From contig JABUST010000050.1 of the NCBI GenBank assembly GCA_021442595.1, positions 1 to 42,266 on the forward strand: a stretch of DNA of 42,266 nucleotides. The letters run 5' to 3'. The DNA comes from Lachnospiraceae bacterium. GTDB taxonomy: Bacteria > Bacillota > Clostridia > Lachnospirales > Bianqueaceae. Below are positions 6 to 21,068 of this stretch, piece by piece; position 1 is the stretch's first letter; each line of letters starts with the position of its first letter. The position numbers and the translations under genes are program-made. Under the pieces are notes generated by a model. It worked only from the letters and a program-made list of their open reading frames with translations, made no database searches and was not told the DNA's origin.

Positions 6-1115
6 ATGGAAAAAGTAAGAATTGCCATCGTAGGCTGCGGCGGTATTGCCAATCAGAAGCATATGCCCTCTCTGGCTAAGTTCCCCGAGCGCGCAGAAAT
101 GGTTGCTTTCTGCGACATCTTTCCCGAGCGCGCTGAAAAGGCCGCTAAGGAGTATGGTACTCCCGATGCCAAGGTCTACACCGACTACAATGAGATGCTT
201 GCTGACACTTCCGTAAGCTTCGATGTAGTTCATGTGTGCACTCCCAATGTGGCTCATTGCCCCATTACCGTTGCTGCTTTTGAGGCCGGCAAGCATGTTA
301 TGTGCGAGAAGCCCATGGCTCACAACACCGAGGATGCTCAGAAAATGATCGATGCCTGGAAGAAGTCCGGCAAGAAGTTCACCATCGGCTATCAGAACCG
401 TTTCCGTGATGACACCCAGACTCTGCATGCTTCCTGTGAAGATGGTGAGCTTGGTGAGATCTACATGGCTAAGGCTCATGCTCTTCGTCGCCGCGCCGTT
501 CCCACCTGGGGCGTATTCCCCAACAAGGCCCTTCAGGGCGGCGGTCCTCTGATCGACATCGGAACCCATGCTCTGGACATCACCCTGTGGATGATGAACA
601 ACTATGAGCCCGCTTCTGTTTCCGGACAGGTCTTCTATAAGCTGGGCCGCGACCCCAAGGGTCCCGAAGGAAACGTATTCGGACCCTGGGATCCCGAGAC
701 CTTCGAGGTTGAGGATTCCGCTTTCGGTCTGGTCAAGATGAAGAATGGCGCTACCATTTTCCTTGAGGCATCCTGGGCGCTGAACGTTCTGAAGTCCATG
801 GAAGCTTCCACCACTCTGATGGGAACCAAGGCCGGTGCTGAGATCCATCACGGCGGTTCCTATGCTAACGACGAACTGATCTACAATACCGTAGAGCACA
901 ATCAGCTCATGGAGAAGGTCATCTCTCCTGCAGGCAAGGTCGACTTCTTCGAGGGCGGCGCTGCAGCTGAAGCAGTTCGCGAGCAGGATCAGTGGCTGAA
1001 TGCCATCCTTACCGATGGCGAGCCTCTGGTTAAGCCCGAGCAGGCATTCTGCGTAACCCAGATCCTGGAAGCTATCTACCAGTCCGCTGAGACCGGCAAG
1101 GAGATCTACTTCTGA
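6..1115 (+). CDS. Gfo/Idh/MocA family NAD(P)-dependent sugar oxidoreductase
   Basis: Predicted cytoplasmic dehydrogenase of 369 residues that would oxidise or reduce a sugar hydroxyl or keto group. The N-terminal Rossmann fold shows IAIVGCGGIA (residues 7-16). The family motif EKP lies at 101-103 with the likely catalytic Lys102, and the active-site segment DIGTHALD gives Asp184 and His188. Length is normal for the family. It opens the operon-like run to 13165 and is one of two such enzymes there. Family members oxidise C3 of glycosides before C-glycoside cleavage, so a 3-dehydrogenase or a 3-oxo-sugar reductase is inferred from the deglycosidase genes downstream; the exact substrate cannot be read. 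The upstream ribosome site and promoter lie outside the window. Codons are strongly biased (GCT, TCC, ATC), suggesting high expression. Confidence 0.9.
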   Translation: MEKVRIAIVGCGGIANQKHMPSLAKFPERAEMVAFCDIFPERAEKAAKEYGTPDAKVYTDYNEMLADTSVSFDVVHVCTPNVAHCPITVAAFEAGKHVMCEKPMAHNTEDAQKMIDAWKKSGKKFTIGYQNRFRDDTQTLHASCEDGELGEIYMAKAHALRRRAVPTWGVFPNKALQGGGPLIDIGTHALDITLWMMNNYEPASVSGQVFYKLGRDPKGPEGNVFGPWDPETFEVEDSAFGLVKMKNGATIFLEASWALNVLKSMEASTTLMGTKAGAEIHHGGSYANDELIYNTVEHNQLMEKVISPAGKVDFFEGGAAAEAVREQDQWLNAILTDGEPLVKPEQAFCVTQILEAIYQSAETGKEIYF

Positions 1116-1189: not shown

Positions 1190-2665
1190 ACGGAACTTCT
1201 ATCCTTAAATAATATTACCAAAGAGTACCCCGGTGTTACTGCTTTGGATAATGTTTCCATCTCATTCGAGAAAGGTGAGGTTCACGCTCTGATCGGCGAG
1301 AACGGAGCCGGAAAATCCACATTCATTAAAACCTTGTCCGGTGCTATCACACCCACATCCGGGACCATCGTTTTCGAGGGCAAGGAATACTCCCATCTTG
1401 AACCCAGACAGGCAATCGATCTCGGTATCGCAGTTGTCTATCAGGAGCTTATCCAGTTTGAAGCCATGAGCGTAGCGGACAATATCTTCATGGGTGTGAA
1501 GGATGAGGAGGGCTTTATTCTGGATGATAAGACCAGAGTAGAAAAATCCCGTGAGCTGCTGAAGATCTTCGATTGCCATGTGGATCCTGCCACTTTGATT
1601 CGTGACCTTTCCATTGCCAACCGCCAGATTGTAGAACTTGCCAAGGCAATTGTTAAAAAGGCAAAGGTTGTTGTCATGGATGAGCCTACCGCAGCCATTA
1701 CCATGGCTGAGCAGGAAAAACTCTATAAAGTGGTCAAGCAGCTGAAGGAGAGTGGTGTAACTGTTATCTACATCTCTCATCGTCTGGAAGAGCTGTTTAT
1801 CATCTGCGATCGTGTTTCCGTCCTTCGAGACGGTCAGTATGTTACCACCTGTGACATCAAGGACCTTACCAAGCAGGACATGATCAAATACATGGTAGGC
1901 CGTGAGCTTACCAATGCTTATCCTCCCAAGGCTCCTCATTCCGATGAGGTCATCATGGAGGTTGATAATGTATCCGGAAACGGTGTGCATGACATCAGCT
2001 TCAAGCTTCATAAGGGAGAGATCCTTGGATTTGCAGGTCTAGTAGGTGCCGGCAGAACAGAACTGATGCATGTTCTTTACGGTGCTGCAAAGAAAGAAGC
2101 CGGTACCATCAAAATTAATGGTAAAGAGGTGAATTTCAGATCTACCGCAGACGGCATGAAGGCCGGAATCGGGCTGATCCCCGAGGATCGAAAGTTCCAG
2201 GGCTGCTTCATCGACAAACCTATTTTCTGGAACAACTCTATTTCCTGTATTGATACCCTGACCAAGGCCGGAGTGGTAGATACCAAGGCAGAAATGAAGC
2301 TGGCTCAGGAGTACAAGGAACGTCTGAAGACCAAGACCCCCACTTTGACACAGTTGACCAGCGGTCTTTCCGGTGGTAATCAGCAAAAGGTGGTCATCGC
2401 CAAGGCACTGGCTGCACTCCCCGAGATCCTCATCTTTGATGAGCCCACCCGCGGAATCGACATCGGTGCCCGTTACGAGATATACCTGCTGATGAATGAA
2501 CTGGCAGAGCAGGGTAAAGCCATTCTTATGGTGTCTTCCGATATGGAAGAGCTGCTGGGCATGTCTGAGCGTATCATTGTTCTTCATGAAGGCCATCAAT
2601 CCGCCGAGCTGCAGAAACAGGAGTTCTCTCAGGAGAAGGTTCTGGCCTGCGCATCCGGTGTATAA
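1190..2665 (+). CDS. Sugar ABC transporter ATP-binding protein (RbsA/MglA type), probable ACG start
   Basis: Tandem-domain ATPase that powers sugar import with the permease and binding protein that follow. Domain 1 has Walker A GENGAGKS (residues 36-43 from the proposed start) and a degenerate signature LSIANRQ. Domain 2 has the degenerate P-loop GLVGAGRTEL and signature LSGGNQQKV, the usual asymmetry of ribose/galactose-type importers. The first standard start codon is a TTG at 1244, but that would delete the conserved first strand and the aromatic A-loop region (KEYPGVTALD). The reading frame is open upstream, and AGGAGG at 1177-1182 sits 7 nt before an in-frame ACG at 1190. ATT at 1184 is only 1 nt from it, and no ATG, GTG or TTG occurs in frame. 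ACG at 1190 gives 491 aa, the family's usual length. Either ACG is a real rare start or an ATG was mutated or misread. Confidence 0.85.
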   Translation, partial: TELLSLNNITKEYPGVTALDNVSISFEKGEVHALIGENGAGKSTFIKTLSGAITPTSGTIVFEGKEYSHLEPRQAIDLGIAVVYQELIQFEAMSVADNIFMGVKDEEGFILDDKTRVEKSRELLKIFDCHVDPATLIRDLSIANRQIVELAKAIVKKAKVVVMDEPTAAITMAEQEKLYKVVKQLKESGVTVIYISHRLEELFIICDRVSVLRDGQYVTTCDIKDLTKQDMIKYMVGRELTNAYPPKAPHSDEVIMEVDNVSGNGVHDISFKLHKGEILGFAGLVGAGRTELMHVLYGAAKKEAGTIKINGKEVNFRSTADGMKAGIGLIPEDRKFQGCFIDKPIFWNNSISCIDTLTKAGVVDTKAEMKLAQEYKERLKTKTPTLTQLTSGLSGGNQQKVVIAKALAALPEILIFDEPTRGIDIGARYEIYLLMNELAEQGKAILMVSSDMEELLGMSERIIVLHEGHQSAELQKQEFSQEKVLACASGV

Positions 2666-2682
2666 GGAGGATATTCAAGTCT

Positions 2683-3624
2683 ATGAACACGAAAAAAATA
2701 GGGAAGATCATCGGAGACTTTGCTCTCCCCATCATGCTTGTAGCACTCATTGTGTTCTTCTCACTGATGAGTCCTGCATTCCTGACTCCCCTGAATCTTA
2801 AAAACATTCTTGTACAGAATGTACATGTAGCTGTCTGCGCATGCGCAGTTATGATCATCATGATATCCGGTGGATGTGACCTATCCATCGGATATCAGAT
2901 GTCCGTAGCTGCCGTTCTGGTTACCAAGCTCATTTCCGTTAATGGATGGCCTCCTTATCTTGCCATCATTCTGGGTATCGCACTTTGTTCCCTTCTGGGT
3001 ACCTTTAACGGGTACATGGGTATCAAGCTAAAGAGCTCCACCATGATCATCACACTTGGTACCATGGCTATCTTCCAGGGCATCTCCTACCTGATCTCCG
3101 GATCCAAAACCTTCCACAACCTGCCGGACAGCTTCATGTTCCTGGGTCAGGGAACTGTCTTCGGATTCATTCCCGTCAGTGTGCTTATCATGATCGTAAT
3201 CGTGGTACTGGTAGGCTTCGTCATGGGAAAGACCGCTATCGGACGTAAGGTTTATGCCGCCGGTGACAATCCGGAAGCTGCCCGTCTGGCAGGTCTGAAT
3301 GTTTCCCGAATTAAAATCCTTTCCTTCACTGTGGCCGGTGTTCTGGTGGGCATTTCCGCCATTCTGCTGGCAGCTCGAAGCGGCTCTGCCGATTCCGGTA
3401 CCGGTGTCGGTATCGAGTTCACCGGCATTACTGCCTGTGTTCTCTCAGGTGTTGCCCTTAAGGGTGGCGAAGGTACTCTCTGGAAGGTTATCGTGGCAGT
3501 CTTCGTGCTTGGCGTTCTGGCCAACGGTATGCAGCTGATCAACCTCGGAACCTATCCTCAGTTCATCGCAAAAGGCGTGATCATGCTGGGATCCCTGTAT
3601 CTTACCAGCAGAAATGCTCAGTGA
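2683..3624 (+). CDS. Sugar ABC transporter permease (RbsC/BPD_transp_2 type)
   Basis: Integral membrane permease of 313 residues with about eight to ten hydrophobic segments, matching ribose/xylose/galactose-type permeases of the BPD_transp_2 family. A conserved cytoplasmic loop, seen here as GDNPEAARLAGLNVSRIK, contacts the ATPase. It starts 17 nt after the ATPase stop with AAGGAGG at 2664-2670. Together with the ATPase and the binding protein it forms a complete three-gene importer. The substrate is probably a monosaccharide or small glycoside; the operon context suggests a glycoside or its sugar product, but this is inference. Confidence 0.92.
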   Translation: MNTKKIGKIIGDFALPIMLVALIVFFSLMSPAFLTPLNLKNILVQNVHVAVCACAVMIIMISGGCDLSIGYQMSVAAVLVTKLISVNGWPPYLAIILGIALCSLLGTFNGYMGIKLKSSTMIITLGTMAIFQGISYLISGSKTFHNLPDSFMFLGQGTVFGFIPVSVLIMIVIVVLVGFVMGKTAIGRKVYAAGDNPEAARLAGLNVSRIKILSFTVAGVLVGISAILLAARSGSADSGTGVGIEFTGITACVLSGVALKGGEGTLWKVIVAVFVLGVLANGMQLINLGTYPQFIAKGVIMLGSLYLTSRNAQ

Positions 3625-3654
3625 TGACATCTCATTTTCAGGCATTAATATAAT
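3624..3654 (+). promoter_or_regulatory. Possible internal promoter before the binding-protein gene
   Basis: TATAAT at 3649-3654 is preceded by ATGACA at 3624-3629 with a long 19-nt spacer. The -10 is perfect but the spacing is poor, so this is only a weak candidate for boosting binding-protein expression. A strong AGGAGGAG ribosome site follows before the ATG at 3691. Confidence 0.3.
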
Positions 3655-3690
3655 GCAAATACATTTCTCATTTTCCTAGGAGGAGAAAAA

Positions 3691-4707
3691 ATGAAAAAGT
3701 TTGTAGCTGTGCTCCTGACTGTAGTCATGGCACTTAGCATTGTTGCTTGCGGCAGCAATGGCAGCAACGAGAAAAAGTCTGCTGCGTTCGTTACTTTCGG
3801 TCTGGGAGGAGATTTCTTCCAGATGCTGGCTGATCAGTTCAAGGCTGAGTATGAAGCTATTGGCTGGGAAGCTTCCTATGCTGATGGTGAGTTTAACCCC
3901 ACCAAGCAGATCGAAGCTGCTGAGAACTACATCGCCATGGGCGTTGATGTTCTTTACATCTGGGCTGTTGCTCCCGAAGCAATGACCGAGGTTGTTAAGG
4001 CTGCTCAGGAGAAGGGCATCCTTGTGGTTGCTTTCGTTGCTCCTATTGAGGGCGCTGACGCTACCATGGTTTCCGATGAGGCTGCTTTGGCCGCTGATTT
4101 GAACAAGCTGGCTGCAGCCTGGATCGATGAAGCCTTTGCTGATGCTCCCGATCATTCTGTTCCCGTGGCCGTTTTCACCTGCAGAACCGCTGAGACCGGT
4201 GTTGTTCAGGGTGATGTGATCCTGAAGATCGAAGAATATTCTCAGAAGGCAAAGTTCGTTATGGAAGTTGAGTGTGCTGATGAGACTCAGCAGACCGGTC
4301 TTTCCAAGATGGAAAACCTGTACACCACCAACCCTGAGATCAAGGTGTTCCTGAGTGCTCACAATGATCTGGGTATGGGCATCAATGCTTACTTCACCTC
4401 TATGAACTCTCCTGTAACCGATTATTCTGACATGGGTATCTTCGTTATTAACGGTTCCGATGCTACTGCAGAAGCTATCAAGGCTTCTACCGAGGGCAAG
4501 GCTCCTCTGCGCGGCACTGTTATGACCGGCTCTGTCACTGACACCGCTCAGGAGATGGTATTCGTAGGCACCGGCCTTGTAGACGGTTCTCTTTCCAAGG
4601 GACATGTTCAGCAGGCAGGTACTGTGTTCGTACTGGATCAGACCATCGATGAGTACATTGCCAACGGTACCGTTAAGGGCTTCACCGCTGACGACCTGAC
4701 TAAGTAA
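3691..4707 (+). CDS. Sugar-binding lipoprotein of ABC importer (Peripla_BP_4 type)
   Basis: Extracytoplasmic solute-binding protein of 338 residues, tethered to the membrane as a lipoprotein. The signal peptide has a KK start, a hydrophobic core and the lipobox IVAC with Cys20 as lipidated residue. The mature part has the ribose-binding-protein pattern (GDFFQMLADQFKAE, then IAMGVDVLYI, then VFLSAHNDLGMG). It completes the importer encoded just upstream, in the order ATPase, permease, binding protein. Strong codon bias, a very good ribosome site, and two large hairpins after the stop codon all fit high expression of this component. The ligand is unknown; a glycoside, sugar or aglycone-bearing sugar is inferred from the neighbours. 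Confidence 0.92.
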   Translation: MKKFVAVLLTVVMALSIVACGSNGSNEKKSAAFVTFGLGGDFFQMLADQFKAEYEAIGWEASYADGEFNPTKQIEAAENYIAMGVDVLYIWAVAPEAMTEVVKAAQEKGILVVAFVAPIEGADATMVSDEAALAADLNKLAAAWIDEAFADAPDHSVPVAVFTCRTAETGVVQGDVILKIEEYSQKAKFVMEVECADETQQTGLSKMENLYTTNPEIKVFLSAHNDLGMGINAYFTSMNSPVTDYSDMGIFVINGSDATAEAIKASTEGKAPLRGTVMTGSVTDTAQEMVFVGTGLVDGSLSKGHVQQAGTVFVLDQTIDEYIANGTVKGFTADDLTK

Positions 4708-4872: not shown

Positions 4873-5883
4873 ATGGCAAAAAAAGTTCTTGGCATTTCAT
4901 TTGGACGCAAAATGAGCAATTGTGATGTTATGGTCAAACACATTCTGATGGAATGTGAAAAGGCCGGCTGCGAAGTTGCATTTCTTCGTGCTGACGATAT
5001 GAATATCACCAATTGCAATGGATGTATTGCCTGCACCATCGGCACCATGACCGGAAGAGGACGGGGCTACTGTGTACGTCATGATGATTTCGATATTATG
5101 GATGAATGTCTGATGCAGTCTGATGCTGTGATTCTGGCATGTCCTACCTATGAAACTTCCGTGACCGGACGCTTTAAGACCATCTGCGACAGGATCGGAC
5201 CCAGCCATGATATTACCTTCCGCCAGGCAGCCTATGATGAAGGAAAAGCAGCAGGAAAGCCTGAGAGCGCTCTTCCCGATGTTCGGACCTTCAAGAAGAG
5301 AACCGCTGCTCTGATTTCCGTAGGCGGAGCTATGACAGAAAACTGGATCGCTCTGACCCTGCCTATGATGTACGAATTTACTTTCCCTCTTGGCATCGAT
5401 GTTGTAGATACTGTTGAGTACTACGGCGCAATGGCCTGTGAGAATGTTGCCGCTAATTTTCCCATGATGGATCGTATGACCCGTATGGCTCAGAACGTGC
5501 TGGATTCCATGAATGCAGAGACAGAAGAGGAGCGCATTAAGTATCGCGGAGACGAGGAGGGTATTTGCCCTCTCTGCCACGGACGCCTTCTGCAGGTGTC
5601 CCATGACCTGAAGACAGTAGACTGTGTAGTCTGCGGAAGCCATGGCAATATCCGTATTGATGAAGAGGGAAAGATCCGTGTCTCCTATACTCCCGAAGAG
5701 TTGGATCGTTCCAGACTTCGCTGGGGCGGAAAGCTGGAGCATTCCACCGAGATCAAGACCAAGGCTCAGCCCTCCGGTACCATTAAGAATCTGAAGGAGC
5801 TGAAACAGCCTTACGCTGATTTCAATCGTCCTGCTTTCCCTGTGGATGAAACAGCATATCATAACGTTAAGCTCAATAAATAA
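4873..5883 (+). CDS. Iron-sulfur flavoprotein-like NADPH-dependent FMN reductase with C-terminal zinc ribbon
   Basis: Cytoplasmic redox protein of 336 residues. Residues 1 to about 200 look like the flavodoxin-fold FMN reductase / iron-sulfur flavoprotein family: VLGISFGR near the FMN phosphate site, a cysteine motif Cys48-x2-Cys51-x2-Cys54 with a further Cys67 that could hold a 4Fe-4S cluster, and ACPTYETSVTGRFKTICDR at 88-106 near the flavin ring. Residues 232-254 add CPLC...CVVC (Cys232, 235, 251, 254), a rubredoxin or zinc-ribbon knuckle that typical members lack. The start ATG at 4873 follows AAGGAGA by 9 nt. Placed between the transporter and the deglycosidase genes, it probably transfers electrons to or from a substrate or partner flavoenzyme; no specific reaction can be claimed. 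Confidence 0.75.
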   Translation: MAKKVLGISFGRKMSNCDVMVKHILMECEKAGCEVAFLRADDMNITNCNGCIACTIGTMTGRGRGYCVRHDDFDIMDECLMQSDAVILACPTYETSVTGRFKTICDRIGPSHDITFRQAAYDEGKAAGKPESALPDVRTFKKRTAALISVGGAMTENWIALTLPMMYEFTFPLGIDVVDTVEYYGAMACENVAANFPMMDRMTRMAQNVLDSMNAETEEERIKYRGDEEGICPLCHGRLLQVSHDLKTVDCVVCGSHGNIRIDEEGKIRVSYTPEELDRSRLRWGGKLEHSTEIKTKAQPSGTIKNLKELKQPYADFNRPAFPVDETAYHNVKLNK

Positions 5884-5903
5884 AGATCAACAGGAGGTTC
5901 AAC

Positions 5904-6296
5904 ATGGCTGGCAGACAGTATTACAATCCGGAAGCTTTCCGCAATGTAACCGAGGATGGAAAGGTCATCGGTTACTCCTTTGAGATCAAGGCCCAGTATT
6001 ATCGGGGCATCACGCTCTCCATCATTCGTGACCTGAAGGTCACTGTGGATGGTGAGACTGCAGACAGAGAGAATGTACGTCTGACAATCAACGGCGTCAT
6101 GTTCACTCTGGAAGAGTGCAGAACCGTCATCGATTCCGACTACCGTTGGGAATTTGGTGATTATGCCACAGTGACTGTCCTGAAAGAGGGCGGTCTGACC
6201 GATGGTCCCCATCATATCCTGTGTCACCAGTCTATCGCTCCTTCCTATATGCCCTTTACTGTGGAAGCTGATTGCGAAGCCGATTTCACTATCTAA
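5904..6296 (+). CDS. C-glycoside deglycosidase beta subunit (DUF6379 family)
   Basis: Small protein of 130 residues that I recognise as the DUF6379 / C-glycoside deglycosidase beta-subunit family, the partner of a TIM-barrel alpha subunit. Features seen are an all-beta character, the segment EIKAQYYRGITLSIIRDLKV with INGVMFTLEECR, and the ending PFTVEADCEADF. In characterised gut enzymes (the Dfg and Dgp systems) the alpha/beta complex cleaves the C-C bond of 3-oxo-C-glucosides such as oxidised puerarin or homoorientin. The alpha subunit gene starts 9 nt downstream, with the stop of this gene merging into its ribosome site, as expected for a stoichiometric complex. Ribosome site AGGAGG at 5892-5897. 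Related complexes might also act on O-glycosides, so the bond type is an inference. Confidence 0.8.
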   Translation: MAGRQYYNPEAFRNVTEDGKVIGYSFEIKAQYYRGITLSIIRDLKVTVDGETADRENVRLTINGVMFTLEECRTVIDSDYRWEFGDYATVTVLKEGGLTDGPHHILCHQSIAPSYMPFTVEADCEADFTI

Positions 6297-6305
6297 GGAG
6301 GTAAC

Positions 6306-7367
6306 ATGATGAGCGCAGATATCAAGAGAAGTGTTTCCCTGTACAGCTATCAGGACGAATACTATAACAAACAGCTGGACCTGGAAGGCTGTCTTCGTGA
6401 AACTGCCAAGACCGGAGCTACCGGCGTGGAGCTTCTGGCTGAGCAGATGATCCGCCGTTTTCCTCTTCCCATTGAAACTGAGGAGTTTCGTGAGCAGTGG
6501 TTTGGCTGGCTGCAGAAATACGGCCTGACTCCATCCTGCTACGACGCTTTCCTGGAGTTCAAACTCTATGACAACCGCACCCTGACTCTCTCCGAGCAGG
6601 TCAACATGATGAAGCGGGACATCCGTCTGGCTTCTCTTCTTGGTTTCACCAATCTTCGTACGCTGGTTTCCACTCCGATGAATGTCATTGAGGGAAGCCT
6701 TGAGTATGCTGAGAAGATGGGGGTCCGCATCGGCCTTGAAGTCCATGCTCCCTTCTCTCTGAATTCTTCCTGGGCAGACGGCTACATGGAAATGATCCAG
6801 CGTACCGGCACCAAGTATTTCGGATTCATTCCGGATATGGGTATCTTCTGCAAGAACCTTCCGGATGTTGTCCGTGAGAAATGGCTCCGCCGCGGCGCAA
6901 AGCCCGAGTGTGTCAAGATCGTGGATGAGTGCTATCTGGAGCGTGTTGCTAAAGGCTTCACCAAGATCAAGTATGACCTGAATCTTGGCAAGGCTAACAT
7001 GGAGTACCGCATGGCTAACGGCATGGGCGAGATGATGGCTGCTGTAGAGAAGGCCGGCGGCAAGGAAGCGGATATGGGCTATGCCTTTGAGTCCTTCGTT
7101 TTCTCCTGGTCCGATCCTCAGGATCTCATCGACAACATCGATTACATCTATCACACCCATGCTAAGTGCTATAACACTCATGAGGATTATGTAGAGACCG
7201 CAACGGCAATTCCCGAGGTAGTAGCTGCCTTTAAGAAAGCCGGTTATCAGGGATTCCTTTCTACCGAGTATGAAGGCGGAGAGCATCTGCGTGCAGATTC
7301 TCCTGTGGATTCCATCGAACAGGTCCGCCGTCATCAGGAGGCTCTGAGAAGAGCCATCGAGGGTTAA
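6306..7367 (+). CDS. C-glycoside deglycosidase alpha subunit (sugar isomerase/AP-endonuclease-like TIM barrel)
   Basis: Predicted catalytic subunit of 353 residues with the xylose-isomerase-like TIM-barrel fold. The likely divalent-metal ligands follow the family order: Glu145 in GLEVHAP, Asp177 in IPDMG, His283/His285 in YHTHAK, and Glu321 or Glu323 in STEYEGG. In the known C-glycoside deglycosidases this metal site (typically Mn2+) promotes beta-elimination of the aglycone from a 3-oxo-C-glycoside. The beta-subunit gene is directly upstream and a Gfo/Idh/MocA oxidoreductase starts 4 nt downstream, the same partners used by the puerarin-degrading system. Without the beta-subunit neighbour this could be called a generic sugar epimerase/isomerase; the pairing makes deglycosidase the better call. 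Confidence 0.8.
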   Translation: MMSADIKRSVSLYSYQDEYYNKQLDLEGCLRETAKTGATGVELLAEQMIRRFPLPIETEEFREQWFGWLQKYGLTPSCYDAFLEFKLYDNRTLTLSEQVNMMKRDIRLASLLGFTNLRTLVSTPMNVIEGSLEYAEKMGVRIGLEVHAPFSLNSSWADGYMEMIQRTGTKYFGFIPDMGIFCKNLPDVVREKWLRRGAKPECVKIVDECYLERVAKGFTKIKYDLNLGKANMEYRMANGMGEMMAAVEKAGGKEADMGYAFESFVFSWSDPQDLIDNIDYIYHTHAKCYNTHEDYVETATAIPEVVAAFKKAGYQGFLSTEYEGGEHLRADSPVDSIEQVRRHQEALRRAIEG

Positions 7368-7371
7368 GACT

Positions 7372-8424
7372 ATGCAGATTCGTTTGGGTATTGTTGGCTT
7401 TGGCTTTATGGGCCATTGCGATGCAGATATGATAGCCACTTTTCCGGACGAGGAGATCAAGCTGGCAGCTGTGGCTGACATTGTTCCTTCTCAGATGGAG
7501 GATGCACCGGAGGGTGTGGAGACCTATAACAGTATTGAAGAGATGCTGGAAAAGGCCGACATCAACACAGTGATGATCTCCACCCCCAACCCCAGTCATC
7601 TGGAGATGGTGGAGAAGGCTGCCGCCGCAGGAAAGCATATCATCTGCGAGAAGCCTGCAGCCATGTCCGTTTCTCAATTTGACAGAATGGTGGAAGTGAC
7701 CAAGAAAGCCGGTGTTCTTTTCACCATCCATCAGCAGAGACGGTTCGATCCCGATTACAATGTAATGAAGTCCGTTTATGATCAGGGACTGGTAGGAAAG
7801 CCTTACGTCATCAAGTCTCAGCTCTACGGATTTAATGGCAACATGCATGACTGGCATGTATTCCCCGAAATGGGCGGCGGTATGCTCTATGACTGGGGCG
7901 TGCATCTCATTGATCAGATCCTGAACATGGTGGATGCGCCTTTGGTGAGCCTGTATGCCGATCTGAGAAATATCATCAACCGCGATGTTGACGATTATTT
8001 CAACATCCTGATGAAGTTCGGCAATGACATCACAGCTGAGATTGAGCTGGGTACTTATTACCTGACTCCCAAGAGAGGCTGGTTCCTGGGCGGTGACAAG
8101 GGTTCGGCTTATATCGACGGCTGGGATTGCGAAGGAAAGATCGTTCGTACCACTCGCCTTTTGACCAATGTCCCCGGAAAGATCACCATGACAGCCGCAG
8201 GTCCTACCAGATCCTTTGGTCCTGCAGCACCGGGACTGCTGACAGAAGAGGAGCTTCCCTCCGTTAATGTCAGTCACCGCAATTACTTTGAACACTTCAT
8301 CAAAGCCTTTAACGGAGAGGAAGAGCTCTTCGTTAAGCCTCATCAGGTGCGCCGCGTCCTCTGTGTTATGGATGCGGTTCGTGAATCTGCCCGCACCGGA
8401 GAAGCTATCAAGCTTGAAGTCTAA
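7372..8424 (+). CDS. Gfo/Idh/MocA family oxidoreductase (probable glycoside 3-dehydrogenase)
   Basis: NAD(P)-dependent oxidoreductase of 350 residues. The Rossmann motif is IVGFGFMG (residues 7-14). EKP at 93-95 provides the family Lys94, and the second-domain segment YDWGVHLID gives Asp174 and His178. It starts 4 nt after the deglycosidase alpha subunit. In the analogous gut systems a protein of this family oxidises the sugar C3 hydroxyl, allowing C-C bond elimination, and can use 3-oxo-glucose as hydride acceptor with a bound cofactor. Its position makes it the better candidate for that step than the first gene of the window, which is clearly divergent from it; a split of labour (oxidation versus re-reduction of the 3-oxo sugar) is inferred, not shown. 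Confidence 0.88.
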   Translation: MQIRLGIVGFGFMGHCDADMIATFPDEEIKLAAVADIVPSQMEDAPEGVETYNSIEEMLEKADINTVMISTPNPSHLEMVEKAAAAGKHIICEKPAAMSVSQFDRMVEVTKKAGVLFTIHQQRRFDPDYNVMKSVYDQGLVGKPYVIKSQLYGFNGNMHDWHVFPEMGGGMLYDWGVHLIDQILNMVDAPLVSLYADLRNIINRDVDDYFNILMKFGNDITAEIELGTYYLTPKRGWFLGGDKGSAYIDGWDCEGKIVRTTRLLTNVPGKITMTAAGPTRSFGPAAPGLLTEEELPSVNVSHRNYFEHFIKAFNGEEELFVKPHQVRRVLCVMDAVRESARTGEAIKLEV

Positions 8425-8444
8425 CCTCACAAGGAGCATGTCAG

Positions 8445-9893
8445 ATGAAGAATTTTGAAGCACAGGTCTGTGTGGTTGCAGGTGGTCCCTCCGGACTTTC
8501 TGCAGCCGTTCAGGCAGCTGAAAGCGGCGCTTCCGTCATTGTATGCGAGAAGCAGGCTGCAGTAGGCGGCGCTGCCAACATGGGTATGGGACCTCTGGGA
8601 ATCGGTACCCGCTATCAGCGCCAGCTCATGAGTGATATCACTGTTGAAAAAGCTTTCAACATGTTTATGGAGTACACCCACTACAATGTAGACGCCCGCC
8701 TGGTGAAAAAGTATTTCTCCATGTCTGCCGAGACCATCGAATGGCTGGAGGAGAAGGGCGTTGAATTCGAAGGTGCATTCCGCTATTTCCCCAAAGCCGA
8801 GCCTACCTGGCACATCGTAAAGTGTGACTCCGGTATTGGCCCCCGCGCTGCTTCTTTCATGAACAAAGCTCTCTATGCAAGGGCTCTTGAGCTGGGTGTT
8901 CGCTTTCTCCTGGAAACTCCCGGCAAAAAGATCATGAAGGATGAAGAGGGCAAGATCTGCGGCGTCCTCTGTTCCGATAAGGATGGCGAGGACGTCCTGA
9001 TCTCCTGTAAGGCAGTCATTCTGGCCACCGGCGGCGCCGGTTCCAACAAGAAGCTGATCAAGGAAGAGACCGGATTCGATCACGGTGTGGATCTGTTCAG
9101 CTTTGCGATCCCCGGACTGCTGGGAGACGGTCTGCGCATGGCCTGGGAAGCAGGTGCAGATAAGCTTCCTGTACGGATAGAAGGAACCGCAGAGGTTCTG
9201 AATGGCGGTGCCGTTACCGGTTCCGTTCCCAATGTGTTCACCCAGCCCAACCTGCTGGTAGGACTGCACGGAAAGCGTGTCATGAACGAAGAGCAGATGC
9301 AGAACACAACTTATCTTGGCAATGTGGTAACCCATTCCAAGAAGAAGGTCTGCTTCTCCATCGTGGATTCCACCATTGTACACGGCTATATCACCAACGG
9401 AGTGGATGTAACCTCTCTGGTACGTCCCAATCCTGACGTATCCGATTTCTATGACGGATTGAAGCAGGCGGCCGACCAGAACCTGGAAGGTTTCTACGTG
9501 GCTGACACCATCGAAGAACTGGCAGAGAAGGCAGGAATCAACGCCGATAATCTGAAAGAAACGGTGAATGCATATAATGAGTACTGCGAGATCGGTGATG
9601 AGGAATTCTTCAAAGACAAGAAATTCCTGCGTCCCCTCATCAAGGCTCCCTTCTATGCCTGTGAGATTCGTCCCTCCGGTTACGGCACCGTGGGCGGCAT
9701 CCGCATTAATGAAAACTGCGAAGCCTGCGATAAAGAATATGATCCTGTCCCCGGCCTCTATGCCGTTGGCGCCGATGCCTGCAATATTTACGATGACAGT
9801 TATATGTTCCTGCTTCCCGGCAACTCCATGGGCTTTGCTGTGAATACAGGACGTATCGCCGGCATGAATGCGGCAGCTTTTGTAAATTCATAA
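8445..9893 (+). CDS. FAD-dependent fumarate reductase/flavocytochrome c-like flavoprotein
   Basis: Soluble flavoprotein of 482 residues related to the fumarate-reductase / succinate-dehydrogenase / 3-ketosteroid dehydrogenase FAD superfamily. The dinucleotide site reads VVAGGPSGLSAA (residues 10-21, an A-G-G-P-S-G variant of GxGxxG). EKQAAVGGAANMG follows, VILATGGAG lies near the middle, and a C-terminal YAVGADACNIY with LPGNSMGFAVNTGRIAG closes the FAD fold. There is no signal peptide and no haem motif, so it is cytoplasmic and must receive electrons from another protein, plausibly the iron-sulfur pair encoded next. Members of this superfamily reduce activated C=C bonds or oxidise CH-CH bonds. 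In this locus, reduction of an enone or acrylate in a released aglycone is an attractive but unproven role. Ribosome site AAGGAG at 8431-8436. Confidence 0.8.
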   Translation: MKNFEAQVCVVAGGPSGLSAAVQAAESGASVIVCEKQAAVGGAANMGMGPLGIGTRYQRQLMSDITVEKAFNMFMEYTHYNVDARLVKKYFSMSAETIEWLEEKGVEFEGAFRYFPKAEPTWHIVKCDSGIGPRAASFMNKALYARALELGVRFLLETPGKKIMKDEEGKICGVLCSDKDGEDVLISCKAVILATGGAGSNKKLIKEETGFDHGVDLFSFAIPGLLGDGLRMAWEAGADKLPVRIEGTAEVLNGGAVTGSVPNVFTQPNLLVGLHGKRVMNEEQMQNTTYLGNVVTHSKKKVCFSIVDSTIVHGYITNGVDVTSLVRPNPDVSDFYDGLKQAADQNLEGFYVADTIEELAEKAGINADNLKETVNAYNEYCEIGDEEFFKDKKFLRPLIKAPFYACEIRPSGYGTVGGIRINENCEACDKEYDPVPGLYAVGADACNIYDDSYMFLLPGNSMGFAVNTGRIAGMNAAAFVNS

Positions 9894-9911
9894 GTGAGGA
9901 GGATTTGAAGA

Positions 9912-12035
9912 TTGGTACACATTTCCATTAACGGTACCGTCCTTGAAGTAAAGGAAGGCTCCAATGTACTGGATGCTGCCCTGGAAAACGGTATCTATAT
10001 TCCTCATCTTTGTCATCATAAGGATCTGAATCCTTTAGGTTCCTGCCGCATGTGCATTGTGGAAGCAGAAGGAAAGGGCATCACCACCTCTTGTACCCTA
10101 AAGGCAGAGGAGGGACTTTCTGTAAAGACTGACAGCCCCGAGATCCAAAGACTTCGTATGCTGGCTCTGGAGCTGCTGCTGACCGGACATCCCGAGGATT
10201 GTTCCACCTGTCCCAAGTACGGTAACTGTGAGCTGCAGACTCTCATTCAGTATATCGGTCCCAAGACCGGACGCATGAAAATGCGGAACAAGGGCTTCAA
10301 GCCTGTAGAGAACCCGCTGCTCATCCACGATATGAGCCGCTGCGTGCTTTGCGGTCGCTGCGTTCGTGCCTGTTCCGAACTCCGAGGAGTTAACGTTCTT
10401 TCCTATCAGAAGAAAGAACTGGAGACCTATGTGGGGACTCTTCAGGGTAAGCTGCTGAAGGATGCAGGCTGCCGTTTCTGTACCGCCTGCGCCGAAGTGT
10501 GTCCCACCGGCACCATTCGTGACCTGTGGCAGAAGAGTCAGGAGAACTGGAAGAAGGAAGACAAGGTCGTCCCCTGCAAGACCACCTGTCCTGCCCACAC
10601 CGATGTTCCCCGCTATGTACGCTTCGTTAAGCAGGGCAATTATGACGCCGCTGCCGCTGTTATCCGTGAGAAGGCTCCCTTTCCCACGGTGCTGGGTATG
10701 ATCTGTAACCATGCCTGCGAAGCTGCCTGCAAGAGAAATTGTCTCTCCGATCCTATTTCTATCCGTAATATCAAGCGCTATGCAGCCGAGCATGACACCG
10801 GTTCCTTCTGGATGGGAAAGGGAAAACAGCTTCCCGATACCGGCAAGAAGGTATGTGTGGTTGGCGCAGGTCCCGCAGGACTTACCGCAGCTTTCTATCT
10901 GCGCAAGCAGGGTCATGATGTAACGCTTCTGGAAGCACTTCCCACTGTGGGCGGTATGATGTCCTACGGCATTCCTGCTTACAGACTGCCACGCGAAGTG
11001 GTACAGAAGGAAGCTCAGGTCATTGCAGACCAGGGCGTAAAGATCCGCTGCGGTGTAAAGGTTGAAAAGCCTCTGGAGCTGCTGAATGAGTATGATGCAG
11101 TTCTGATGACCATCGGCGGTCATAACGGCGTGATCCTTCCCATGGACGGAAGCAAACTTCTCGGCGTTCTTGCCAACATTCAGTTCCTCCGTAATGCAGC
11201 CATGGGCCTTCCCACCGGAATGGGCAAGAAGGTCATCGTGCTGGGCGGCGGAAATGTTGCCTTTGACTGTGCCCGCACCGCTAAGAGACTGGGGGCTGAA
11301 GAGATACATCTGGCGTGTCTGGAAGCCCGTGAAGTCATGACGGCAGATGATGAGGAGATCAAAGAGGCTCAGGAAGAGGGCATCTTCGTCCATCCCGCTC
11401 AGACCTTTGAGCGTATTACCGGTGAAGATCATGTTACCGGTGTGGACTTCATGAATGTAGAGAGCTTCACCTTTGATGAGAATCGCAGAGCCATCATCAA
11501 GAAGGAAGCAGGATCCGAGCATCATATCGATGCAGATACGGTTATCTTTGCAACAGGACAGCGTCCTGACATCACTCCCGATGCAGGTCTCACTCTGGGC
11601 CGCGGAAACTCCATCACCGTTAAGGACATGGAGAAGGATAAGACCACTTCTGTGGAAGGTATCTTCGCAGCCGGCGACTGCATCTACGGAACCAAGTCCG
11701 TCATCCAGGCCATTCAGTCCGGCCGTGAAGCTGCATCTCAGATCGACAAGTATCTGGGAGGCGACGGGGACATTACCGAAACTCTTGCTCCTGATATTCC
11801 TGCAGATCCCTGCATCGGACAGATTCCTGACTTCGGGTATCTCACCCGTAAGGGTCCTGTTATGGTTCCTGCGGAAGATCGCCAGAATAACTTCGAGATC
11901 TTCAACCTTGGTATTTCTGATGAGGATATTACCTGTGAAGCAGGACGCTGCCTGCAGTGTGATCTGAGACTGCAGATATCCAAGCCTCATCTCTGGGGTG
12001 ATTATGTGGATACCACAGAAGGGAGCGCAAAGTGA
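9912..12035 (+). CDS. NuoG-like ferredoxin domain fused to GltD-like NAD(P)H:FAD oxidoreductase
   Basis: Electron-transfer flavoprotein of 707 residues. Residues 1-80 are a plant-type 2Fe-2S ferredoxin (Cys34, 45, 48, 61). Next comes a NuoG-style His93/Cys97/Cys100/Cys106 site, then two 4Fe-4S sites (Cys144-147-150-154 and Cys187-190-193-197). From about 220 it is the glutamate-synthase small-subunit type: Cys222/226, the Cys265-269-273-277 group, FAD motif VVGAGPAGLTAA (316-327), NAD(P) motif VLGGGNVAFDCA (443-454) and GIFAAGDC (583-590). It carries the only visible pyridine-nucleotide site of the downstream redox pair, so it probably takes electrons from NAD(P)H. Start is TTG at 9912, 9 nt after a GAGGAGGA ribosome site. 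It overlaps the next gene. Confidence 0.85.
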   Translation: MVHISINGTVLEVKEGSNVLDAALENGIYIPHLCHHKDLNPLGSCRMCIVEAEGKGITTSCTLKAEEGLSVKTDSPEIQRLRMLALELLLTGHPEDCSTCPKYGNCELQTLIQYIGPKTGRMKMRNKGFKPVENPLLIHDMSRCVLCGRCVRACSELRGVNVLSYQKKELETYVGTLQGKLLKDAGCRFCTACAEVCPTGTIRDLWQKSQENWKKEDKVVPCKTTCPAHTDVPRYVRFVKQGNYDAAAAVIREKAPFPTVLGMICNHACEAACKRNCLSDPISIRNIKRYAAEHDTGSFWMGKGKQLPDTGKKVCVVGAGPAGLTAAFYLRKQGHDVTLLEALPTVGGMMSYGIPAYRLPREVVQKEAQVIADQGVKIRCGVKVEKPLELLNEYDAVLMTIGGHNGVILPMDGSKLLGVLANIQFLRNAAMGLPTGMGKKVIVLGGGNVAFDCARTAKRLGAEEIHLACLEAREVMTADDEEIKEAQEEGIFVHPAQTFERITGEDHVTGVDFMNVESFTFDENRRAIIKKEAGSEHHIDADTVIFATGQRPDITPDAGLTLGRGNSITVKDMEKDKTTSVEGIFAAGDCIYGTKSVIQAIQSGREAASQIDKYLGGDGDITETLAPDIPADPCIGQIPDFGYLTRKGPVMVPAEDRQNNFEIFNLGISDEDITCEAGRCLQCDLRLQISKPHLWGDYVDTTEGSAK

Positions 12036-13165
12036 TGGCAAACAGAGAAATCATTGAAAAAATCCGTTCTGCCCATGTGATGGAGCAAGGCGTATATGCG
12101 ATCCCGCTGGCAGATAAGCTGGAAGAGAACATCGGCGCACCTGTCATTGTGGCTGCGCTGAACAATGCCGATGTAGACGGAGTCTTTCTTCAGCTTCTGA
12201 AGAAGGATCCTGCAAAGATTCTCGAAGGTCTGAACATCTGTAAGGATGCCATCGGCGCAGAGAATGCGGTGATCCAGCTTCCCGAGTATGCAGCCTCCAT
12301 GGCCGAGCAGCTTCAGGCAAAGGGCGCTGCGGTTCAGGTAGGTCTCATCAATGTCCGGGCCAATGCCGGCAATATGCTGACTCATCTGGCTTCCATGGCA
12401 GATGTGGCTGATGCCTTCAGAGGAACTTACACAGAAGGCGTATACGTTTCCGTAAATGGAGGAGCCATCTGCAAGGTTTCTGCAGATACCAAGCTTAAAG
12501 ATCTGGTTTCCGGAGACATCAAGGGTTTTCAGACCGGTTATGTATTCAGAGGTTCCGAAGCTTTGGACATGACCGTAGCAGAGGCACAGATCGAAAACGG
12601 CGTGCTGAATGCTCTGACCTCTCAAAACTGTGTGGTAGATCTGACGGAAAAGCAGTTGACTGCTTCCAGGAAACAGAGCTGCGGCAAGTGTGTCTTCTGC
12701 CGTGAAGGTCTGATCCAGCTGCAGGGAATGCAGAAGGATATCACTGTAGGCAAGGGCAGATTGGATGAGCTTGATCTCACTAAGGAGATAGGAGAGGCTA
12801 TGACCTATTCCACTCCCTGTTCTATGGGACAGAATTGCTCTCGCCTGGCTCTCTCTGCTGTAGAAGTCTTCCGCTCCGAATATGAGGAACATATCAAGAA
12901 GCATAAGTGCTCTGCGGATGTATGTCTGGCTTTCCGCAAGGTCTACATCGATCCTATGGCCTGCACCGGCTGTGCTTCCTGTATTCCTTCCTGTCCTGTG
13001 GATGCCATTGACGGCGCCGAGGGTTATATCCATGTGGTATTTGATCATGGCTGTACCCGCTGCGGAAAGTGCGTTGATGCCTGCCCGGAGAAGGCGATTC
13101 ATGTGACCACAGGAACCGTTCCCAAGCTTCCCAAACGCATGATGAAGGTAGGACGTTTCAAGTAA
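12035..13165 (+). CDS. NuoF-like iron-sulfur protein (SLBB plus N3-type cluster) with 2[4Fe-4S] ferredoxin, lacking NADH/FMN site
   Basis: Electron-transfer protein of about 376 residues. The C-terminal half is like the NuoF/HndC 51-kDa subunit: an SLBB-like segment around 135-185 (GVYVSVNGGAICKVSADTKL), then SCGKCVFCREG with Cys217, 220 and 223 plus distal Cys263 for a 4Fe-4S cluster, then a two-cluster ferredoxin (Cys311-314-317-321 and Cys341-344-347-351). The N-terminal half lacks the glycine-rich FMN/NADH motif of true NuoF, so it cannot by itself oxidise NADH. It overlaps the NuoG-GltD gene (stop TGA and start ATG share an A at 12035; a GTG at 12032 is an alternative start), implying coupled synthesis of a complex. 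Residue numbers count from the GTG. Likely route: NAD(P)H to the GltD domain to clusters to ferredoxin or flavoprotein. Confidence 0.8.
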   Translation: MANREIIEKIRSAHVMEQGVYAIPLADKLEENIGAPVIVAALNNADVDGVFLQLLKKDPAKILEGLNICKDAIGAENAVIQLPEYAASMAEQLQAKGAAVQVGLINVRANAGNMLTHLASMADVADAFRGTYTEGVYVSVNGGAICKVSADTKLKDLVSGDIKGFQTGYVFRGSEALDMTVAEAQIENGVLNALTSQNCVVDLTEKQLTASRKQSCGKCVFCREGLIQLQGMQKDITVGKGRLDELDLTKEIGEAMTYSTPCSMGQNCSRLALSAVEVFRSEYEEHIKKHKCSADVCLAFRKVYIDPMACTGCASCIPSCPVDAIDGAEGYIHVVFDHGCTRCGKCVDACPEKAIHVTTGTVPKLPKRMMKVGRFK

Positions 13166-13421: not shown

Positions 13422-15824
13422 ATGTTCGACTTTGAATTTCTGGTAAAAGACATGCCCCGGAAAGAAATCTCAAAAAAGATCATGCTCTTTTATATCATGG
13501 AGGGAAGGATCGACTTTACTTTAGTGGATAAGACCTATTCCATGCATCAGAACGATTTTATTATTCTGAATGTAGACAGAGAGTATTCTTTCCGTGCTGA
13601 AGGAGAATTCCTCGCAGCCTGTTTTCAGATTTCCTATACGGAATTGTGTGAGCTTACGAAGGTCCGCCCCATTTTTCTCTGGGGAAACACTGTGGTGGAT
13701 AATAATGAAGGCTGTATGGAGCTGAAGAGGCTCATCCGAAAGCTGCTGGCAGAGTATTACAGTGCAAGGGATAAGAGTTCACTTCATCTGATGAGCTTGT
13801 ATTATGAGGTATTGAATGTCCTGATGACGGAGTTCCTCCTCAACAAAGAGAGCGCTCAATACAAAGAGGAGAGCAGCCGATTTGATTCCAGAAAGCAGGA
13901 GATTATTGAATATATCCGTATGAACTACAATAAACAGATCAGCCTGGAGGATCTGGCCGGATATCTGTTTCTTTCTTATGCCTATCTTTCCAAATATATC
14001 AAAAAGACTTTTGGCATGGGATTTTCGGATTATCTGAATCAGGTTCGGTTGGAATATGCCGTCTCTTCTTTGCTGAATACGGATATGCCGGTAGTCAGGA
14101 TTGCCATGGAATCCGGGTTTGCCTCCTCGGCTGCCCTGAATAAGGCTTTCAAGGAAAAGTATGACCTGACCCCAACAGAATATCGCAGGAAGTTTTTCGG
14201 TCGGAAAATCGAGAAGGATGAGTCTGAGGAGGATGAAGAGCATATCCGGACACAGCTGGCAAGATATTTCAGTACCAATATGGGAAATGACGCCTCCTCC
14301 AGAAAAAACCTGACGGAGAATGTCACCCTGACTAACCTGTCCAAGAGAGTACTGGTAAAGAACTGGTCAAAGCTGCTGAATATCGGTACTGTTACTGATC
14401 TGCTTCAGTCTGATTTTCAGAGCCACGTATTAATGCTGAAAGAGGACCTTCATTTTGAATATATACGCATCTGGGATCTGTACAATGAGGAGCTTTTCGT
14501 GGATCCCAATGGTAATGACTATATTTTTGATAAGCTGGACCGAGTGCTGGATTTCCTTCTAAATCACGGTCTGAAGCCCTATATTGAGCTGCAGCCGAAG
14601 CCGAAGATCATTATGGCTAACCAGTATTCCATTCTTCAGTACAGGAAAAACCCGCTTCTTTCTGTTCAAAGAGAGCCGATTCTCCGGTTCATGAAGAACC
14701 TTATGGTGCATTTGCTGAACCGGTATAATTCCGAGGATGTGGAAACCTGGTTCTTTGAACTCTGGTTTTCCGAGCCGGAAGAGGTGCTGCTGCAGCCCAA
14801 TATGTCTCACAAGGTCATGTCCAATGACAGATATCTGGAACAGTACAAGCAGATCTATCACATCATCAAGGACTATCTCCCCGGAGCGAAACTGGGGGGC
14901 GGCGGCTTTTCTCTCCGATACGGAGAACCTCTCCTGAAGGATATGCTGGAAAAATGGAGCAAGATCGAGGAGAAGCCTGATTTTATCAGTCTGTACTGTT
15001 ATCCCTACACACCGGATACCATTGAGCGTTCCAGAAACCAGAGCCGGGAGTTTTCCGTAATCCAGAACTCCATTACTGTACTGAAAAAGCTTATGGAGGA
15101 AGTTTCTTTCCCTCAGGTAGATATCCACGTCACGGAATGGAATTTCTCCGTATCCAGCCGAAACAGCCTGAATGATCATTGTATGAAAGGGGCCTACCTC
15201 ATGAAAACCATGATCGACTGTGTGGATATGGTGGACATAATGGGATACTGGACAGGCTCCGATCTGTTTGCATCTTATCACGACTTTAAAGCCATACTTC
15301 ACGGTGGAGGAGGTCTGATCTCCAAGGACGGTATCCGCAAGCCTGCCTATTATGCCTTCGACTTTATGAACCGGCTGGGGAAGTATATGCGCATGAAGGG
15401 GGATAATTACATTATCACAGATAATGGCGCAGGAAACTGGAGGATCGTCTGTCATAACCTGAAAACTCTGGACTACAAATATTCTCTCATGCTGGAGGAT
15501 GAGGTAAGAACCTCTGAGATCAATACTCTGTTCACTGACCTGAAAAAGAAACGCTTCCATTTCGATCTTCCCGGAAAGAAAGGAGGAAAATATCAGCTTC
15601 GAATCCAATCCGTTAATCAGAAGCACGGAAGCCTTCAGGATGAATGGATCGCCATGTCCGCACCGGAGGAAGTCAGACTGGAGGACATTAAGCATCTGAA
15701 AAGGATCACCACCCCTCGTCTGGTGCTGAAATCTGTCACAGCAGAGGAGGGCCGCATTCTATTCGATGTGAACATGGAACCCAATGAGATCATGTTCATT
15801 CATGTGACCTATCAATATTCCTGA
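13422..15824 (+). CDS. AraC-family regulator with C-terminal GH39-like (beta-xylosidase-type) domain
   Basis: Three-part transcription factor of 800 residues. Residues 1 to about 130 form an AraC cupin-like ligand or dimerisation domain. Residues 155-260 are the double helix-turn-helix (ISLEDLAGYLFLSYAYLSKY, then FASSAALNKAFKEKYDLTP). Residues from about 310 to 700 resemble glycoside hydrolase family 39: FELWFSEPEEV with Glu451 at the acid/base position (the usual Asn before Glu is Ser) and HVTEWNFS with Glu572 at the nucleophile position. There is no signal peptide, so the enzyme-like domain is intracellular and probably senses a sugar or glycoside. It lies just after the glycoside operon terminator, on the same strand, and is the obvious candidate regulator for it. 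Ribosome site CAGGAGG precedes the ATG. Confidence 0.88.
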   Translation: MFDFEFLVKDMPRKEISKKIMLFYIMEGRIDFTLVDKTYSMHQNDFIILNVDREYSFRAEGEFLAACFQISYTELCELTKVRPIFLWGNTVVDNNEGCMELKRLIRKLLAEYYSARDKSSLHLMSLYYEVLNVLMTEFLLNKESAQYKEESSRFDSRKQEIIEYIRMNYNKQISLEDLAGYLFLSYAYLSKYIKKTFGMGFSDYLNQVRLEYAVSSLLNTDMPVVRIAMESGFASSAALNKAFKEKYDLTPTEYRRKFFGRKIEKDESEEDEEHIRTQLARYFSTNMGNDASSRKNLTENVTLTNLSKRVLVKNWSKLLNIGTVTDLLQSDFQSHVLMLKEDLHFEYIRIWDLYNEELFVDPNGNDYIFDKLDRVLDFLLNHGLKPYIELQPKPKIIMANQYSILQYRKNPLLSVQREPILRFMKNLMVHLLNRYNSEDVETWFFELWFSEPEEVLLQPNMSHKVMSNDRYLEQYKQIYHIIKDYLPGAKLGGGGFSLRYGEPLLKDMLEKWSKIEEKPDFISLYCYPYTPDTIERSRNQSREFSVIQNSITVLKKLMEEVSFPQVDIHVTEWNFSVSSRNSLNDHCMKGAYLMKTMIDCVDMVDIMGYWTGSDLFASYHDFKAILHGGGGLISKDGIRKPAYYAFDFMNRLGKYMRMKGDNYIITDNGAGNWRIVCHNLKTLDYKYSLMLEDEVRTSEINTLFTDLKKKRFHFDLPGKKGGKYQLRIQSVNQKHGSLQDEWIAMSAPEEVRLEDIKHLKRITTPRLVLKSVTAEEGRILFDVNMEPNEIMFIHVTYQYS

Positions 15825-17186: not shown

Positions 17187-17277
17187 TATCTTGTGTTTTT
17201 TAGAAACAGAAACTACATTTTGTTGCTATTGTATAGGGATAAGAGCTTTTCATGACAATGCTTCATTATTCCTTGCA

Positions 17278-17306
17278 TTGACCATTCCGGTGGGAGCGGG
17301 TATGAT
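17278..17306 (+). promoter_or_regulatory. Sigma-70-type promoter for NCS2 permease
   Basis: TTGACC at 17278-17283, exactly 17 nt, then TATGAT at 17301-17306. The start codon is 42 nt further on. No purine riboswitch or terminator is visible in the short leader. Confidence 0.75.
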
Positions 17307-17348
17307 ATTTTCTATCAAAAATTCCAATAATGAAAGAGTGGTATTCTT

Positions 17349-18788: not shown

Positions 18789-18811
18789 TTCTTTTCCGAC
18801 AAGTAAAAAAT

Positions 18812-18887
18812 AAAACAGCCCCGGGCTTTCAGACGTCATCGGACTCATTTCCGAGTTCAGCCTGATAAGCTTAAGGGCTGTTTTTTT
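18812..18887. terminator. Branched bidirectional terminator
   Basis: AAAACAGCCC (18812-18821) pairs with GGGCTGTTTT (18875-18884) and runs into a T-tract. The 53-nt loop contains a further small stem (GGACTC/GAGTTC). On the minus strand the stem is followed by TTTTATTTTTT, so it can also end the mocA-like transcript. The stretch 18888-19010 holds nothing else I can support. Confidence 0.8.
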
Positions 18888-19010
18888 CATCATAAGAATC
18901 TGTTTAGGCTTTATTTCTTTATCGGCTGAAGGAATTCTGCAGAGTTTCCGCGAGAGAAAAGCTGAACTTCAGCTAATAGTGGAAGTTAGAGCAGATGAGA
19001 TCAACACGAA

Positions 19011-19613: not shown

Positions 19614-19647
19614 AAATGCTTGTTCACTTTCCTTATGTAGATTTTCA

Positions 19648-19665
19648 GCTCATAGAGATGAGCTT
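19648..19665. other. Small perfect stem in mocA leader
   Basis: AGCTCAT and ATGAGCT form a 7-bp perfect inverted repeat around a 4-nt loop (19648-19665), inside the short 5' leader of the minus-strand mocA-like gene. It could be an RNA hairpin or a DNA operator. No function is assigned. Confidence 0.4.
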
Positions 19666-19680
19666 CCTGTGACACTAACG

Positions 19681-19710
19681 ATTATACTCTGAATAACAGG
19701 ATAGATACAA
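19681..19710 (-). promoter_or_regulatory. Candidate promoter for mocA-like gene
   Basis: On the minus strand TTGTAT (19705-19710), an 18-nt spacer, then a perfect TATAAT (19681-19686), about 65 nt before the start codon. Confidence 0.5.
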
Positions 19711-19760
19711 ATCAAATAAACGTATCGATATAAAGGAAGGATGTATTAGTCTCAGGATTA

Positions 19761-21058: not shown

Positions 21059-21068
21059 GGAGGAAGCC

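Follow-up and report, generated by a model that had tools for sequence, protein, structure and literature searches.

What does a C-glycoside deglycosidase (CGD) locus act on when it lies between a sugar importer and a set of redox genes, and what would the redox genes contribute? The question is raised by positions 5904-8424 of the window, by which we mean the full 42,266-nt stretch of contig JABUST010000050.1. A sequence-only reading had described there a DUF6379 beta subunit, a TIM-barrel alpha subunit with a metal site and a Gfo/Idh/MocA oxidoreductase in succession, preceded by an importer and followed by a redox module not known from the described loci, and had suggested that the substrate may be new. 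Forage and diet commonly contain C-glycosyl flavones, which resist ordinary glycosidases. The described gut loci for C-deglycosylation end at the aglycone or pass it to separately encoded enzymes; in the window, C-C bond cleavage and aglycone reduction would be tied together in one gene run. Judging from the genes present, we regard it as fairly probable that the start of the window is one operon for the anaerobic use of flavone-type C-glycosides, with NADH-powered reduction of the aglycone. The CGD machinery is of a known kind; what is new is a CGD operon carrying an undescribed, widely recurring reductase module.

Gene content of the operon

The three ORFs of the CGD trio lie head to tail on the plus strand, with intergenic distances of 9 and 4 bp, and belong to the families that had been named. 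The importer is present at 1244-4707, and the redox module at 8445-13165 is real and recurrent. Two genes had been overlooked: a DgpA homologue (6-1115) and a homologue of flavone reductase (FLR; 4873-5883). The genes are as follows.

6-1115, plus strand: Gfo1, DgpA homologue; best PDB match 7xr9 (DgpA), 548 bits, 241/364 residues identical
1244-2665, plus strand: ABC ATPase of the CUT2/AraG-XylG sugar importer type; PF00005 twice, best NCBIfam matches AraG/XylG/RbsA, under their cut-offs
2683-3624, plus strand: ABC permease, BPD_transp_2; PF02653, 126 bits
3691-4707, plus strand: substrate-binding protein, Peripla_BP_4; PF13407, 83 bits
4873-5883, plus strand: FLR-like FMN ene-reductase; PDB 7d38, E 3.5e-34
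5904-6296, plus strand: CGD beta subunit, 130 aa; PF19906 (CGDB), 125 bits, cut-off 27.6
6306-7367, plus strand: CGD alpha subunit, 353 aa, Mn-type TIM barrel; PDB 8qvc_A, 4e-72
7372-8424, plus strand: Gfo2, DgpA2-like Gfo/Idh/MocA oxidoreductase, 350 aa; PDB 9m37, 427 bits, 196/345 residues identical
8445-9893, plus strand: FAD2, soluble FAD_binding_2 reductase; PF00890, 142 bits, also NCBIfam VprA and Foldseek matches
9912-12035, plus strand: fusion of NuoG-type Fe-S domains with a GltD-type FAD/NAD(P)H domain; PF13510, PF10588, PF14691, PF07992
12032-13165, plus strand: NuoF-like Fe-S protein; PF10589, PF13237, Complex1_51K at just E 5.5e-4
13422-15824, plus strand: AraC protein with a GH39-like domain, likely a regulator; PF12833, PF01229

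Family scores far over the cut-offs rule out chance ORFs. From 4873 to 13165 the intergenic distances range from -4 to about 20 bp. The first base of the window is the start of the contig and Gfo1 begins 5 bases further in, so that the operon may be seen only in part. A consensus promoter scan found sites no more frequent than in shuffled sequences, and no operon promoter is claimed. The frame of the ABC ATPase extends upstream of the TTG at 1244, and its real start probably lies there. In the interval 1178-1244 the ribosome site is good and the in-frame codon at the expected start is ACG; either this is a rare start, or translation starts at the TTG downstream, or the assembly contains an error. 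Beyond the operon, a 547-aa ORF on the minus strand (17250-18893), next to an MFS gene, gave no match in a Pfam search, and 19011-23366 encodes MobA-like proteins and molybdenum hydroxylases of the xanthine dehydrogenase type.

The alpha/beta pair

Homology makes it nearly certain that the pair within 5904-8424 is a C-glycoside deglycosidase. Neither subunit fell outside the CGD families: in the family HMM search the beta subunit matched PF19906, the former DUF6379, since renamed 'C-glycoside deglycosidase beta subunit', and its solved relatives are 9m3a_B, DfgB and DgpB. All significant PDB matches of the alpha subunit were CGD alphas (8qvc, 9m3b, 7bvs, 8qrz, 7bvr, 9m3a and 7dnm). The closest is the CGD of Deinococcus aerius TR0125 (PDB 8qvc/8umc), an organism of a different bacterial group, with 38% identity. 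When the predicted single-chain alpha model (pLDDT 88.4) was compared with solved structures by Foldseek, ranks 1-16 were all CGDs (E<=1.1e-19; TM 0.88/0.95 for the best), and the next match was at 1.2e-10.

The active site of AgCGD2 consists of E147, H149, D179, H269, K271, E305 and E307 (PMC8563793). In register with these, the alpha subunit has the metal ligands Glu145, Asp177, His285, Lys287 and Glu321 and the catalytic residues His147 and Glu323, at the same spacing save for an Asp-to-His stretch that is 18 residues longer. Thus the earlier assignment of Glu145, Asp177, Glu321 and Glu323 stands, and the pair given as His283/285 has to be corrected to His285/Lys287, His283 being no ligand. 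The active-site residues were invariant in a 29-member alignment, and the metal ligands and the catalytic His were retained in 78/78 alphas compared; the only departure among the 78 was a Lys in place of the second Glu (Glu323) at one locus (L007). HMM search, solved homologues, active-site register, predicted alpha fold and gene order all agree on a CGD locus.

In several respects the locus resembles DgpABC of Dorea sp. PUE, which acts on puerarin, and DfgABE of Eubacterium cellulosolvens, which acts on homoorientin: it has a DgpA-type oxidase, a TIM-barrel alpha subunit with the same metal and catalytic residues, and a CGDB-family beta subunit adjoining it. It differs from them in that its alpha subunit is only about 26% identical to DgpC/DfgA, that it has two different Gfo oxidases, and that the operon adds the CUT2 ABC importer, the FLR homologue and an NADH-Fe-S-FAD2 module.

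The Gfo oxidoreductases, the FLR homologue and the substrate class

Gfo1, which resembles DgpA more than Gfo2 does, is 66% identical to the puerarin C3-oxidase DgpA of strain PUE and is predicted to be a glycoside C3 dehydrogenase. The best solved relative of Gfo2 (57% identity) is entry 9m37, 'P581a DgpA2 and isoorientin complex', a protein crystallised with a flavone 6-C-glucoside; a literature search on P581a/W974-1 or DgpA2 did not find the describing paper.

The FLR-like gene lies directly upstream of the beta gene. Its product had a single significant PDB match, 7d38, the FLR of Flavonifractor plautii, to which residues 4-298 of 336 aligned with 30% identity, the C-terminal Cys-pair tail included. 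It shares with that enzyme (PDB 7d38-7d3b) the FMN ene-reductase family and, in the alignment, Asp103, Gly106, Trp149, His271 and Ile275, whereas the Ser147-Trp149 loop is longer (the Trp149 equivalent follows a 3-residue insertion) and Lys92 is replaced by Thr. In the FLR study, mutation of Gly106, Trp149, His271 and Ile275 lowered activity most, and apigenin was reduced by 11/11 FLR-like proteins assayed; a second F. plautii homologue, a distant paralogue, did not reduce it (PMC8398226). The FLR-like protein is predicted to reduce the C2=C3 bond of flavones.

Because the operon contains an FLR homologue and the nearest solved relative of Gfo2 binds isoorientin, the substrate is probably a flavone-type C-glycoside. 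These two genes thus point to a known class rather than to the new kind of substrate proposed before. That the locus serves another class (isoflavones, xanthones, anthrones or 3-oxo O-glycosides), whose aglycones the FLR-like protein and FAD2 would reduce, appears unlikely to us, although it has some support: Gfo1 is nearest to the puerarin enzyme, DgpA enzymes accept a variety of C- and O-glycosides for oxidation (PMC11239390), and at 25-38% identity to the characterised CGDs the specificity of the alpha subunit is not readable from its sequence. Flavones are nevertheless favoured by the family of the FLR-like gene and by the DgpA2 relative that binds isoorientin.

The redox module and the proposed pathway

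FAD2 resembles VprA, urocanate reductase and ketosteroid dehydrogenase. It shares the FAD_binding_2 reductase fold with VprA, urocanate reductase and flavocytochrome c3 but, unlike them, has no FMN-binding or cytochrome domain; presumably, NuoF/NuoG-like proteins, whether encoded apart or fused to it, supply it with electrons. It was not assigned as the vinyl phenol reductase VprA, the NCBIfam equivalog score being 292 bits against a cut-off of 600, nor as a flavocytochrome c3 fumarate reductase, the carboxylate-binding His pair of HHTMGG being replaced in YGTVGG (Tyr413). In the predicted model of FAD2, confidence is low where the active site is presumed to lie (pLDDT <50 for 43-50 and 444-459).

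The GltD-like domain of the fused NuoG/GltD protein has, by inspection, a second dinucleotide motif ending in Leu-Glu. NADPH enzymes usually have Arg-Arg at this place, and the Leu-Glu end suggests that the protein uses NADH. In the NuoF-like protein the FMN/NADH domain is degenerate and lacks the glycine-rich motif, and a two-cluster ferredoxin forms the C-terminus. Natural fusions of NuoF and FAD2 occur in three loci, at L051 (978 aa, 5841-8777), at L076 (835 aa) and as a 978-aa open frame in G203:C16. We take them as strong evidence that the two function as one enzyme. Positions 7844-10717 of L153 hold such a fusion.

In the pathway that we propose, the glycoside would be imported by the ABC importer, in relatives perhaps by another transporter. 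By homology, Gfo1 (DgpA) and Gfo2 would oxidise the C3-OH of the sugar and later return the hydride to the released 3-oxo-sugar, and the alpha/beta Mn enzyme, the active site of which is complete, would break the carbon-carbon bond in a beta-elimination with acid/base catalysis assisted by the metal. The FLR homologue would then hydrogenate C2=C3 of the freed flavone. Electrons would pass from NADH through the NuoG/GltD protein to the Fe-S clusters and the NuoF-like protein and on to FAD2, which would reduce a C=C bond or open the C-ring of the aglycone; the module may also feed electrons to FLR. The cell would then draw carbon and electrons from the sugar and discharge electrons onto the aglycone.

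That FAD2, NuoG and NuoF form an NADH-driven aglycone reductase we hold with a little more confidence than doubt. The step proposed for FAD2 is the one catalysed by the flavanone-cleaving (enoate) reductase Fcr/EnoR. Fcr is an alpha/beta-barrel FAD oxidoreductase (PMC11868195) and FAD2 is a FAD_binding_2 protein without the barrel domain, which excludes identity of the two; FAD2 would therefore be a non-homologous substitute. This, the low confidence of the FAD2 model at the active site and the variation among FLR-like proteins speak against the proposed pathway. The fuller proposal is tentative, and we give it somewhat less than an even chance: an Fe-S-relayed flavonoid reductase, driven by NADH, that replaces Fcr/EnoR, possibly serves as the electron chain of FLR, and makes the aglycone the sink for its own sugar. 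NAD(P)H does not serve FLR as reductant, and which donor does was left open (PMC7862272). The operon offers candidates for two gaps, this donor and an alternative way of attacking the C-ring of flavonoids. As far as we have found, the module is undescribed in the context of a CGD locus.

Distribution among relatives

A scan of named genomes yielded 78 alpha loci, mostly from Lachnospiraceae, with alpha subunits 61-87% identical; some or all of the operon is found again in dozens of members of the Lachnospiraceae and other Clostridia. Neighbours were counted in 76 relatives, or in the 43 of them flanked by at least 5 kb on each side. Among the 76, the beta gene was close to alpha in 71 (four of the five exceptions were truncated by a contig end), a Gfo1 homologue at least 70% identical in 42, an AraC-GH39 homologue in 41 and c4, a TIM-barrel protein of the AP_endonuc_2 family, in 30. 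In the 43 well-flanked loci the numbers were 42 for beta, 34 for Gfo2, 27 for Gfo1, 23 for FAD2, 21 for the FLR-like gene, 20 for c4 and 18 each for NuoG and NuoF. Among all relatives, FAD2 was present in 19/19 loci with NuoG close to alpha. The gene of the substrate-binding protein is retained next to CGD genes at three loci (L032, L035 and L048).

Genome-wide, FAD2 was found in 26 of 27 alpha carriers, also where it was unlinked to alpha, the sole exception being a 1.5 Mb assembly. Of 196 genomes of the same order, two had alpha, and FAD2 occurred in the same two and in one more, i.e. in 1/194 without alpha (exact p 1.6e-4, a guide only, as the sample contains relatives).

FAD2 also occurs apart from CGDs. 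Paralogous cassettes of FLR, FAD2, NuoG and NuoF lie within about 9 kb of phloretin hydrolase (PF18089) genes in four loci, the first three without CGD genes and the last with CGD beta, c4 and Gfo2:

L135, 6820-14981
L136, 6175-14317
L137, 5778-14656
L140, 443-13229

One 37 kb contig of Clostridium puniceum (L138/L139) carries two CGD pairs, Gfo1, Gfo2, c4, an FLR-like gene, FAD2, NuoG, NuoF, transporters and two phloretin hydrolases, and is a candidate for a complete pathway from C-glycoside uptake to phloretin hydrolase.

The host genome

The alpha gene was absent from all sampled family relatives of the host. A contaminating contig is unlikely, the IlvC gene that flanks the operon being native to the host's family (86-91% identical to same-family genomes). 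Because IlvC is native while the family relatives lack alpha, a lateral gain of the operon, or else its loss in the kin, is probable.

Two related loci were found on other contigs:

G000:C14 (L087, 7102-12359): second FAD2, FLR-like gene and AraC-GH39 regulator; no NuoG or NuoF nearby
G000:C7 (L084, 9465-10781): second CGD alpha/beta pair, DfgA/DfgB type

The second FAD2 (73% identical) lies beside the FLR-like gene, which matches the FLR6 cluster at 67%; no CGD accompanies them. The second CGD pair adjoins an IlvD/EDD-like gene and has no oxidoreductase beside it. A search for phloretin hydrolase, positive in 8/27 alpha carriers, detected none in the host genome, so breakdown of the aglycone would end early here. 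Likewise, c4 was not found in the host assembly (best match 32%); relatives often have it at the place where the window is cut by the contig start, before Gfo1.

Aglycone or sugar as the acceptor

The tight tie between FAD2 and alpha would also fit an action on the released sugar. FAD2-NuoG/NuoF would then reduce the enone of 1,5-anhydro-D-erythro-hex-1-en-3-ulose and a Gfo enzyme would reduce the 3-keto group, making an anhydro-sugar the electron sink. FAD2 does accompany alpha in genomes with or without FLR nearby, its family acts on C=C bonds conjugated to a ketone or carboxylate, c4, a candidate sugar hydratase, is missing from the host assembly, and 19/27 carriers as well as the host have no detectable phloretin hydrolase. 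On the other hand, c4, close to alpha in so many relatives, would account for the sugar branch, and its usual place is where the window meets the contig edge. An action on the sugar seems unlikely to us. Reduction of the aglycone is favoured by the FLR/phloretin hydrolase cassettes without CGD, the second FAD2 of the host and the full set in C. puniceum. The module might, lastly, be a general respiratory-type reductase that merely shares the neighbourhood, as FAD_binding_2 reductases of anaerobes use many acceptors and FAD2 homologues at 47-55% identity occur in varied contexts, but the near-confinement of FAD2 to alpha genomes and its linkage in about half of the well-flanked loci make this improbable.

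As to the later fate of the aglycone, six loci (L003, L016, L020, L031, L058 and L063) encode thiolase-like proteins close to the CGD genes, and some of them also a small companion protein that is DUF35-like by eye, a butyrate-kinase-type protein (Acetate_kinase family) and a phosphate-acyltransferase-like protein; these perhaps serve ring-derived acyl-CoA.
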